Assembly: GCA_021323635.1 (NCBI GenBank)
Contig: JAJPKQ010000033.1
Coordinates: 1-56,233 of the forward strand
Origin: a bacterium
GTDB lineage: Bacteria > Actinomycetota > Thermoleophilia > Solirubrobacterales > Solirubrobacteraceae
Direction of reading: 5' to 3'
DNA: 56,233 bases
Shown here: piece after piece, positions 10,745 through 14,876 of the stretch
Numbering within the stretch: position 1 is the stretch's first letter
How the letters are laid out: each line of letters starts with the position of its first letter
Notes under the pieces: model-generated
Told to the model about the DNA's origin: nothing
The model's database searches: none
Seen by the model: only the letters and a program-made list of their open reading frames with translations
Position numbers and translations under genes: made by a program

Positions 10745-10993
10745 ATGCGCACGCGCGACGAGGTGCTTTCGCTGATTCGCAACCATCTGGCGAGCGAGCT
10801 TGAGGTTGACGTGCGGCGGATCGGCGAGACGACACGCTTCAAGGAGGATCTGGACGCGGACTCGCTCGACCTCTACGCGCTCGTGCAGGAGCTCGAGGAC
10901 GTCTATGGCATCAGGATCCCCGACGAGGAGGCGCAGGAGATAGCCACGGTCGGCCAGGCCGCCGACTTCGTCCTGGCGCACTCCGAGCGATGA
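10745..10993 (+). CDS. acpP: Acyl carrier protein
   Basis: 82 residues. Carries growing acyl chains on a phosphopantetheine attached to the serine of DADSLDLYALVQELEDVYGI (Ser near residue 40). Helix 2 is acidic as in AcpP. It overlaps rnc by ATGA. The plsX-acpP-rnc-smc order is the standard Gram-positive arrangement, but fabD and fabG are absent. Confidence 0.93.
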   Translation: MRTRDEVLSLIRNHLASELEVDVRRIGETTRFKEDLDADSLDLYALVQELEDVYGIRIPDEEAQEIATVGQAADFVLAHSER

Positions 10994-11715
10994 GCGCGCA
11001 GCTGCTGGAGCACGATGCGCCCGGAGCGGGCGGGATGGGCGGCGCGAAGCTGATCGCGCTCGCCGGGGAGCTGCCCAGCGACCTGGCGCGCCAGGTCTTC
11101 ACGCACGCCTCCTGGAGCGAGCACCGCTCGGGCTCCTACGAGCGCCTGGCCTTTCTTGGCGACTCGGTGCTGGGGCTGGCGATCACAGCCCACCTCTATC
11201 CGCGCCTGGCTGCCGAGCGCTTCGGCGCGGGTAGGCTGACAAAGATCCGCGCGCAGGTCGTCTCCGGCCCTTCCTGCCGGCTGGTCGCGCAGCGCCTGGG
11301 GCTGCTCGAGCGCCTGCAGGGCGCCGCGCCGCAGAGCAGCGGACCCCAGCAGATGCGCGATCTGGCCACCGAGCGCGTGCTTGCCTCCGTGCTCGAGGCG
11401 CTGATCGGCGCCTGCTTCCTGCAGGTCGGCTACGAGCGCAGCGCGGCGGCCGTCGTCGATGCCTTTGCGCCGGAGATCGAGCGGGCGCTTCAGTTTCCGC
11501 TCGACTTCAAGTCGACCCTGCAGGAGCAGCTCGCGCGCAGCGGCGAGCGTGCCGCCTACGAGCTGATCGACGAACGCGGGCCCCCGCACCGGCGCACCTT
11601 TGCGGTCGGCGTGCGCCTCCGTGGGGAGCTGGTCGGCCGCGGCGAGGGGCCCAGCAAGAAGGTTGCCGAGCAGGAGGCCGCCCGCCAGGCGCTCGAGCGG
11701 CTGGGAGAGGGATGA
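10990..11715 (+). CDS. rnc: Ribonuclease III
   Basis: Double-strand-specific endonuclease that processes rRNA and mRNA. 241 residues: N-terminal endonuclease domain with the signature ERLAFLGDSVLGLAI, a second acidic site in ASVLEALIGACFLQVG, and a C-terminal dsRNA-binding domain (about 165-238) ending GEGPSKKVAEQEAARQALERL. It starts with ATG overlapping the acpP stop and is 7 nt from smc. Confidence 0.95.
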   Translation: MSAQLLEHDAPGAGGMGGAKLIALAGELPSDLARQVFTHASWSEHRSGSYERLAFLGDSVLGLAITAHLYPRLAAERFGAGRLTKIRAQVVSGPSCRLVAQRLGLLERLQGAAPQSSGPQQMRDLATERVLASVLEALIGACFLQVGYERSAAAVVDAFAPEIERALQFPLDFKSTLQEQLARSGERAAYELIDERGPPHRRTFAVGVRLRGELVGRGEGPSKKVAEQEAARQALERLGEG

Positions 11716-11722
11716 GCAGGCG

Positions 11723-14518
11723 ATGCACCTGAAGCGCATCTCGATCAGGGGCTTCAAGTCCTTCCGCGACCGCACCGCCCTTGAGCTCGGGCCGGGCGTG
11801 AGCGTGATCGTGGGGCCCAACGGCTCGGGCAAGTCAAACATCACCGACGCGATCCTCTGGGCGCTCGGCGAGCAGTCGCCGAGCGTTGTTCGCTCCAAGG
11901 CAATGGAGGATGTGATCTTCGCCGGCGGCAGCGGGGTGCCCGCAAGCGCCGCCGCGGAGGTCGAGCTGGTGCTCGCCAACGAGGAGGATGCGCTCGCGCT
12001 GCCCTTCGGCGAGGTGGCGATCGCGCGGCGCCTTGGCAGCGACGGCGAGGGCGAGTACCTGCTCAACGGCGCGCGCTGCCGGCGCGCGGAGATCCTCGAG
12101 CTTCTCTCCGACGCCGGCCTGGGCAAGGAGGCCCACTCCGTGGTCTCGCAGGGGCGCATCGAGGCGGTGGTGAGCGCCAGGCCGGCGCAGCGCCGCGCGC
12201 TGATCGAGGAGGCGGCGGGCCTGGCGAAGCATCGCGCCCGGCGCGCCAGCGCGCAGCGCAAGCTCGAGCGCACGCGCGAGAACCTGGCGCGCGCGCTCGA
12301 CGTGGAGCGCGAGGCGCGCAGCAGCCTGCGCCCGCTCGAGCGCCAGGCGCGCGCCGCCGAGCTCCATGAGCGCCTGGCAAGGCAGATGGCGGAGGTGCGC
12401 CTGGCGCTGGTCGGCGAGCGCTACAGCGCGGCGCTGGCCGAGCGCGATCGCACCCGCGCGCAGGCGCAGCGCGCGCACTCCGAGCGTGCGCAGCTGGAGC
12501 AGCGGCTGAGCGCTGTGATGGAGCGCCGGCAGCGGGCCGAGGAGGCGCTTGCAGAGCGCTCGGCGCGCAGCGAGCAGGCGACCGCCCTCCTCTACGAGCT
12601 GCGCTCGGCCTTCGAGCGCCTGCAGGGTCGCGCCGAGCAGACGCGTGCGCTTGGCGCGAGCGTCACCGAGCGCCTGGCGGATGCGCGCGCCCAGGCGGCA
12701 GAGCTGCGATCGCTGCCGGAGCGCTCCGTAGCGCAGCGGCAGGCGGCAAGCAGCCGGATCGAGGAGCTGCAGGCAGCGCTCGAGCGCGCCGAGCAGGAGC
12801 GCACGCTGGCGCTTGCCAAGCGCACCGAGGAGCACGAGCGCGCGCTGCAGTCGGCGCGCGAGGCGCGCAGCCAGGCGCAGGCCGTGCTCGTAGGGCTGCG
12901 CGAGCGGGCGCAGCAGGCGCAGCGCGCGCTCTCGGCGGAGCGCGCAGGGGTGCTTTGGGAGCGCAGCTGGGAGGAGGTGCGCGAGCTGCTGCGCGATGGC
13001 GTCGAGGAGCTGGTCGCGATCGCTGATGCAGCGCAGCGTGCCACGGCGCTCGATGCGCTGCTTGTGCGCGCCCAGGAGGTTGCGCGGACGGCGCTGCAGA
13101 GCGCGCTGGGCGCAGTCGACGCGGCCGAGCGGGAGGCGGAGCGGGCAGGCGCGCAGCTGCTGGCGGGCGAGCGCGCGCTGGCGGCGGCAAGCGAGGCCGA
13201 GCAGCGCGCAGCGTGGCTGATCGAGCGTGAGCGCACCGCGGCCGCGCACGGCGAGCAGGCGCTGCGCGTGGCCGCGATCTCCGGAGAGCTCGCGGCGGAG
13301 CGCCGCGCCCTTGAGCGCGCCCAGGAGGAGGCGCAGCGCAGCGCAGCGCGCTTGGCGGAGCTGGAGGAGCAGATCGCTCGCCTGCAGGCTCTCCCCGATC
13401 TGATCAGCGCCGGTGCGGATGCGCTCGGCGATCTGGTTGCGGCAGGCAGCGGTCATCTGCAGCGCGCCCAGGCGGCGCTTGAGCGCGAGCGCGAGGCGGG
13501 CGCCGGGCTGGCCGGCCAGCTGCGCGCCTGCGCGAGCGAGGAGGCGGAGCTGCAGGGCAGACTGCACCAGGCAAGCGAGGCGCTCACCAGCTGCAGGCTG
13601 GAGTCAGGGCGCGCGGAGGACCGCGCCGCCGAGCTCCACCGCGAGCTTGGCGCGCTCTGCGCAGAGCTCGGGCGAGATCTCACGCAGCTGCAGGAGCAGG
13701 ATCTGAGCCTCGCGGAGGATGAGCGCGCCGGGCTGCAGACGCGCCTGCAGCGGCTGGAGCGCCGCCGCGAGGCGCTCGGCCCGGTCAACCCGCTGGCGCA
13801 GGAGGAGCACGCGCAGGCGCTCGCTCACGTCCAGGAGCTCCAGCGCCAGCGCGAGGACACCGAGAGCGCGCTGCGCGAGCTAGAGCAGGTGATCCGCGAG
13901 GCCGATCGGCGCATCCGCGAGACCTTTCAGCAGACCTTCAGGCAGGTGGCAGAGAGCTTTGAAGCGGTGATCGGGGAGGTCTTTCCGGGCGGCTCCGGCC
14001 ACCTTGAGCTGGTCGAGGAAGCGCCTGCGCGCGAGGCGCTGCCCGAGGAGGAGGGGGGCGAGCAGCCGGCGCTCTCCGGGGAGGACGACCCGACGCTCCA
14101 GGAGGAGGGAGTGGAGGCTGGAGAGCCGGCGCAATCCGGGCGCGAGCGACGTCTGGGCGTGGAGATCGAGGTGCGTCCGGCCGGCAAGAGCTCCAAGCGC
14201 CTGTCGCTGCTCTCCGGCGGGGAGAAGTCGATGACCGCGCTTGCCTTCCTGTTTGCGATCTTCCTCGCCCGTCCCTGCCCCTTCTACGTGCTCGACGAGG
14301 TCGAGGCGGCGCTCGACGACGTCAACCTCGAGCGCTTCGTCGCCCTGCTGCGCCGCTGTGCAGGCGAGGCTCAGTTCATCGTCATCACCCACCAGAAGCG
14401 CACGATGGAGGCCGCCGACTGGCTCTTTGGCGTCTCGATCGGGCGCGACGGGGTCTCGAAGGTGCTCTCGCGCAGGATGACCGAGCCGCTTGAGCCGGCG
14501 CTGCCCGGCACGGCATAG
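11723..14518 (+). CDS. smc: Chromosome segregation protein SMC, short form without recognisable hinge
   Basis: ATPase that organises the chromosome. From ATG 11723, giving [14 protein letters not shown], it has 931 residues against roughly 1150-1200 for typical SMC. Walker [10 protein letters not shown] is at 31-39, [11 protein letters not shown] is the Q-loop region, the ABC signature LSGGEKS is at 830-836 and Walker [14 protein letters not shown] at about 856-868. Between the heads (about 170-745) is Ala/Glu/Arg-rich coiled coil. I could not find a folded hinge with its conserved glycines. An acidic linker (about 768-812) sits before the C-terminal head. The frame is unbroken, so this is shortening, not a frameshift. 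ftsY and ffh do not follow. Confidence 0.9.
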
Positions 14519-14533
14519 CAGGCGCTGCGCGCT

Positions 14534-14548
14534 CAAAGCGTCTAAGCT
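14534..14548 (+). promoter_or_regulatory. rpsP operon promoter, -10 TAAGCT
   Basis: TAAGCT at 14543-14548 lies within the same 12-mer (CAAAGCGTCTAA, 14534-14545) as the rpmB promoter. The predicted leader is about 55 nt with an AGAGAAG-type ribosome site next to ATG 14610, so this mRNA is not leaderless. Confidence 0.5.
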
Positions 14549-14609
14549 TCGCTCTTGCGCGCGTGCTGCGCGCCGTGATGATGAGCGAACAGCGGAGATA
14601 CGAGAGAAG

Positions 14610-14876
14610 ATGGCGGTAAGGCTGAGGCTGAGGCGCGTAGGTGCGCGCAAGGACCCCGTCTGGCGCGTGGTCGTCGCCGACCAGCGCTCGCCGCGCGACG
14701 GTCGCGTGATCGAGACGATCGGTCATTACAACCCGCAGAGCGCGCCCTCGACGGTGCGGATCGACTGCGCGCGCGCAGACTGGTGGCTGGCCCACGGCGC
14801 GCAGCCGAGCGCTGCGGTGCGGCGGTTGCTGAAGATCGCGCGGGAGGGCTCCTCGCAGTCTGTGGAGTCGGTGTGA
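14610..14876 (+). CDS. rpsP: 30S ribosomal protein S16
   Basis: 88 residues starting [20 protein letters not shown], with [19 protein letters not shown] and the [17 protein letters not shown] segment. ATG 14610 is chosen over longer upstream frames because it gives the universal S16 N-terminus. It overlaps khpA by GTGA and begins the rpsP-khpA-trmD unit. Confidence 0.95.

Follow-up and report, generated by a model that had tools for sequence, protein, structure and literature searches.

A sole Smc protein without a hinge domain in a member of the Solirubrobacteraceae, and hingeless relatives in other Actinomycetota

It is commonly taught that Smc proteins always depend on the hinge as their dimer contact. 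What could hold two Smc proteins together if the hinge is missing? This question is raised by a gene on contig JAJPKQ010000033.1 (assembly GCA_021323635.1) of an uncultured bacterium of the family Solirubrobacteraceae. We analyzed positions 1 to 56,233 of this contig and refer to this stretch as the window. An earlier note, made from the letters of the sequence, had described the smc gene at 11723-14518 (+ strand) as intact, with both ATPase halves and 931 residues, and had found no discernible hinge. As described below, this protein is the sole Smc of its genome.

Absence of the hinge from the window Smc

Translation of 11723-14518 gave 931 uninterrupted residues followed by a stop codon, and third-position GC stayed at 0.84-0.95 along the entire frame, equal to that of the neighboring genes. 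The split ABC ATPase head is present with Walker A, signature and Walker B. The N-terminal ATPase half and its neck (11723-12337) carry a Walker motif at residues 31-39 and were modeled by AF2 with pLDDT mostly above 85. The C-terminal half (13775-14518) carries the signature LLSGGEK from residue 829, a Walker motif at residues 854-866 and the H-loop THQ at residues 889-891. When aligned with congeners, all of these ATPase motifs are invariant. The Pfam families SMC_N and AAA matched the protein, and TIGR02168, the bacterial Smc equivalog model, scored 634.6 bits against a cut-off of 567.35. The intact frame, its length and both ATPase halves were thus confirmed by translation, Pfam and TIGR02168.

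The TIGR02168 alignment covered model positions 2-518 and 679-1179 and skipped about 160 positions in between (519-678), which are those of the hinge. The hinge family PF06470 (SMC_hinge) did not match the window Smc, even at E≤10. The search was sensitive enough for this purpose, since in 130 of the order's 232 genomes the same family exceeded its cut-off, with E values mostly of 1e-8 to 1e-22. It also matched 22 of 22 hinged control proteins, and it was not among the families matched by at least two of 37 hingeless Smc, each scanned singly. A search of all six frames of the genome, which is 97.5% complete at 2.64 Mb in 46 contigs, found no PF06470 match, hence no separate hinge gene, and no second Smc. 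The earlier note had named a hinge fold inside the coiled coil and a second full-length smc as observations that would overturn its reading. Neither was found, the former by Pfam or AF2 and the latter by the six-frame search. We consider it nearly certain that this Smc has no hinge.

The deletion junction and the predicted tip

The window Smc is about 50% identical to its hinged congeners, and alignment with them showed one clean deletion, in which about 37 residues of the canonical hinge-proximal ascending arm are gone together with the hinge. The remaining ascending arm (12338-12946, residues ~206-408) leads into the deletion junction and a recoded hinge remnant at 12947-13024 (residues 409-434), which is predicted to be next to the tip of the hairpin. 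After the deletion, the sequence continues from the glycine that precedes the final hinge segment, where the hinged congener G017 has GRVWLAKWGEVRQMAEGG. Residues 409-432 are still recognizable as the C-terminal end of a hinge, for which hinged congeners have GRVWLAKWGEVRQMAEGGAERVLA. G409, W416, R420 and G426 are invariant across 8 aligned congeners. On the opposite flank of the tip (13025-13108, residues 435-462), the hingeless congeners have the motif AExxARxxxExAL in common. The descending arm follows at 13109-13774 (residues 463-684).

In hinged G017, a short near-repeat, CGTGCGGGCG / CGTGCGGGGCG, flanks the hinge-coding segment on both sides (L136). This RAG-encoding repeat could be a lead to the deletion mechanism; in GC-rich DNA it may also be due to chance.

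We modeled the window Smc as a monomer with AF2. Between the heads the model has helices at residues 338-433 and 440-657 and no strands, and residues 409-434 are predicted to be helical. The earlier note was right that no hinge is discernible here; its unbroken coiled coil needs refining at residues 409-432, which retain a recognizable piece of hinge. The heads are well formed (mean pLDDT of ~90), and the tip is poorly defined (pLDDT <50), the alignment behind the model containing hinged relatives only, which weakens the model at the tip. The full-length model turns at residues 434-439. When the isolated segment 330-560 was modeled without an alignment, the turn was at 407-411. We favor the turn at 434-439 because the arms measured from the conserved neck would then be about 231 and 248 residues long, nearly equal as in hinged relatives. 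The hinge remnant would in that case stand in for the missing end of the ascending arm. A fold search of the PDB matched heads and arms of Smc and condensin and gave nothing informative for the tip.

Locus, partners and distribution of hingeless Smc

The rnc gene (RNase III, 10990-11715, + strand) ends 7 bases upstream of smc, and rpsP (S16, 14610-14876, + strand) is directly downstream. Relatives with and without a hinge have the same gene order, yceD-plsX-rnc-smc, which makes the window smc an orthologue and not a paralogue. In the window, rpsP starts 91 bases past smc (14519-14609 lie between); in the relatives checked, both hinged and hingeless, this gap is mostly several kb. In G009 the gap holds ftsY, genes for an SPFH-like protein and a methyltransferase, and ffh, all assigned by eye from the translations, and this block seems to have left the locus in the window genome. 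No parS-like site was found in the window, where the best match had 5 mismatches in 16 positions.

Looking for scpA and scpB had been suggested in the earlier note, and both are present in the window genome, G000 (ScpA at C33:147598-148254 and ScpB at C33:147026-147496). Of the order's hingeless genomes searched for both partners, all have the pair except G001, which is only 63% complete. Among genomes drawn from hingeless families, 23 of 24 have ScpA. The hinge has therefore been lost and the kleisin kept.

Five other genomes of the genus (G001, G006, G007, G009 and G012) encode colinear Smc of 936-961 residues with the same deletion junction; the smc of G012 is cut by a contig end. Thirteen congeners retain a hinge above the PF06470 cut-off, and 5 more, whose smc is either absent or interrupted by contig ends, fall outside this tally. 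One hinged genome, G022, has a second Smc-like fragment on the short contig C138 (L156). It is strongly hinge-positive (PF06470 4e-22) and is possibly contamination.

Family f3 of the same order contributed 29 hingeless Smc of ~780-820 residues. They come from eight genera, and one of them is encoded by G063, a genome in a single contig. A conserved ERAxxxARRAExLLGxR block lies in the arm of the f3 proteins. Four f3 genomes (G061, G067, G080 and G081) retain the hinge. An even sample of 149 Actinomycetota genomes was used to survey the phylum. Hingeless Smc were found in eight genera of f9 (~1020 residues, one copy cut by a contig end), in f37 (G299, 916 residues), in f30 (G265 and G287, ~890 residues) and in f12 (G250, 736 residues). 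The f9 proteins (L255-L262) contain a very conserved stretch, LVRAEGSEAAGRATIGSIEARV, within the ascending arm and far from the expected tip. Three proteins of f24 and f10 that looked hingeless by length (G249, G264 and G233; L264, L265 and L266) were rejected because the hinge is present. These Smc of ~967-985 residues have short arms and a retained hinge, which is another way to be short.

The head tree placed the hingeless congeners at three spots. G000 groups with G001 and G006, G007 lies beside hinged G008 (100/94), and G009 and G012 are found among hinged species. An rpoB tree agreed for the window genus, where 4 of the hingeless members had data, and for f3. Across the phylum, the head tree requires at least eight switches between hinge and no hinge, and a single hingeless clade was rejected (p-AU 5e-82; 4e-76 for f1 plus f3 alone). 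The positions of f12, f30 and f37 in this tree are unsure owing to long branches. The hinge has been lost independently in other Actinomycetota families. Within f3, two hingeless groups flank the hinged species, with only moderate support (89/83 and 81/73), an arrangement that either two losses or one loss followed by a regain may explain.

Within the window genus, the hingeless proteins come together in the tip segment only and not in the flanking arms; trees of the heads, the N-arm and the distal C-arm scatter them. In the tree of this segment (residues 416-500 of G007), the hingeless congeners were united at 100/99, G000 being left out for its long branch. One hingeless group was disfavored by the N-arm (p-AU 0.017) and the distal C-arm (0.037), and the heads were indecisive (0.11-0.24). 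Between G009 and G012, identity is 64% for the tip segment, against 41% and 51% for the arms. In an identity permutation of the tip segment, hingeless pairs were more alike at p = 0.076 only. The pattern is compatible with a tip cassette that moved by recombination, which the permutation does not prove, or with convergent remodeling after separate deletions.

Dimerization without a hinge and comparison with known systems

We considered what else such a protein might be. In a draft assembly of 46 contigs, an assembly error or frameshift might have removed the hinge codons, and we give this almost no credence. Six genomes of the genus, 29 of f3 (including a single-contig one) and members of four other families have the same architecture in open frames, and relatives that share it refute an artefact in practice. 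In Rad50/SbcC, RecN and proteins of the MukB/MksB/JetC type, the head likewise sits on a coiled coil and the canonical hinge is lacking, so another SMC-like machine might have been misread as Smc. This is just as improbable. TIGR02168 scored above its cut-off, and the Rad50 models reached at most 66 bits against cut-offs of 700-1087. A CxxC zinc hook is absent from the translation, the smc locus order and ScpAB are retained, and identity to hinged congeners is about 50%. It is also conceivable that a condensin which has lost its hinge is falling into disuse, its heads being kept for now in a lesser role. Smc is dispensable in some actinobacteria, and the G000 branch of the head tree is long (1.21 against a median of 0.16, the rpoB branch being normal), so that constraint on Smc is possibly relaxed in the window genome. 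We judge such decay unlikely, in view of the open frame with its third-position GC, the invariant ATPase motifs, the retained ScpAB and the persistence of hinge-free Smc throughout many f3 and f9 genera. Orthology, head and partners place the window protein in the Smc family, as a member that lacks the hinge, and it is very probably still the condensin of the cell, working with ScpAB.

How its dimer is held together can be approached from engineered systems. In Bacillus subtilis, cells whose Smc had its hinge replaced by a Rad50 zinc hook grew normally, and Smc was non-functional when hinge dimerization was abolished (PMC5344682). A Wadjet motor without the elbow-to-hinge segment extrudes loops if its arms are cross-linked, and only the bypass of obstacles is lost; in Wadjet, the hinge channel serves as the gate through which obstacles on an ssDNA or RNA tether are bypassed (PMC12647877). 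Given the B. subtilis failure, hinge loss would require compensation. The earlier note had argued that a hinge-less Smc needs another dimer contact or a rod-like mechanism, which seems reasonable and agrees with this published work. Because of the zinc-hook and cross-linking results, a natural hingeless Smc should require a contact of some kind at the apex. Our candidate for it is the conserved tip around W416-R420-G426, and in f3 the ERAxxxARRAExLLGxR block may fill this part.

We therefore put forward a working Smc-ScpAB condensin in which hairpin tips replace the hinge as the dimer contact and the hinge channel is forfeited; as a whole, this is probably the right account. Its central element, tip-to-tip dimerization, has about an even chance of being the replacement contact; we infer both this contact and the function of hingeless Smc. 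The vertically inherited Smc-ScpAB ATPase would have undergone a deletion of ~175 residues that took the end of the ascending arm and nearly the whole hinge. Each Smc would fold as one head on a coiled-coil hairpin, and the former hinge end, a glycine-rich strand end recoded to helix, would lie beside the hairpin tip. Two hairpins would then join tip to tip in a four-helix contact and also along their arms. ScpA would bridge both heads into a closed ring or rod, ATP-driven loop extrusion would continue, and the hinge channel would be lost.

Alternatively, the tips may never meet. The hairpins would then be held only by ATP-dependent head engagement, by ScpA/ScpB and perhaps by contacts between arms lying side by side; the rod would be open at its far end, and no closed Smc ring would be needed for pumping or bridging DNA. 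We think this possible and give it about a quarter of our belief. Conserved ScpA and ScpB, rod contacts known between the arms of hinged Smc (PMC5526789) and the variation of tip sequences among hingeless lineages are all compatible with it. It is harder to reconcile with hinge-free Wadjet cores that are active only with cross-linked arms (PMC12647877), with the failure of B. subtilis hinge-dimerization mutants (PMC5344682) and with a tip that is conserved in a lineage-specific manner. We continue to prefer hairpins joined at their tips.

In a wider and more tentative reading, which we hold to be somewhat doubtful, the hinge is a dispensable module that was repeatedly discarded in Actinomycetota. 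Tip-joined or contact-free hairpins would extrude loops, the bypass gate would have been traded away, and the tip cassette would have been recombined between species of the window genus. In recent Wadjet work the hinge is a bypass gate only and not a part of the motor. Lineages that lost the hinge and kept ScpAB are a natural experiment on this point, and a single genus even offers sister species of both kinds. Should complexes without a hinge prove to extrude loops, any extrusion model that requires one is excluded. If they do not, chromosomes are folded differently from what is assumed across a large part of the phylum.

A hinge-less Smc was published in 2025 for one abundant marine actinobacterial cluster (PMC12153180), and we found no other report of such proteins in the open-access literature. 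According to the available portion of that report, the marine proteins share with the window Smc a head and coiled coil, the absence of both hinge and zinc hook, a single copy and an actinobacterial host. The window Smc likewise has neither hinge nor CxxC hook. The marine cluster is described there as one monophyletic clade from ocean metagenomes; here hingeless Smc occur in at least five lineages, including the window's own order. As a guess, the marine clade may correspond to f30, a family with small, AT-rich genomes. The same portion of PMC12153180 does not deal with ScpAB, the tip, recurrent loss or variation inside a genus. The recurrence, the retained ScpAB and the tip remnant appear to be new, and we add a larger second set of lineages and a genus with hinged and hingeless sister species.

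Compared with canonical Smc-ScpAB (TIGR02168), the window Smc has the same head halves, arms, kleisin ScpA, ScpB, gene neighborhood and orthology. It differs in that PF06470 is missing, the ascending arm is shorter, the hinge end is now a helix and the protein has 931 residues instead of ~1090-1160. Rad50/SbcC dimerizes via a CxxC zinc hook and has Mre11/SbcD as its partner, whereas the window Smc has no CxxC and its partner is ScpAB. Further parallels are the engineered SMCs, the Wadjet ecJET core (PMC12647877) and the B. subtilis zinc-hook Smc (PMC5344682), in which loop extrusion or growth can do without the hinge fold if the arms are joined. Those proteins are artificial and carry an added cross-link or hook, whereas the window Smc is a natural state with a putative replacement contact.
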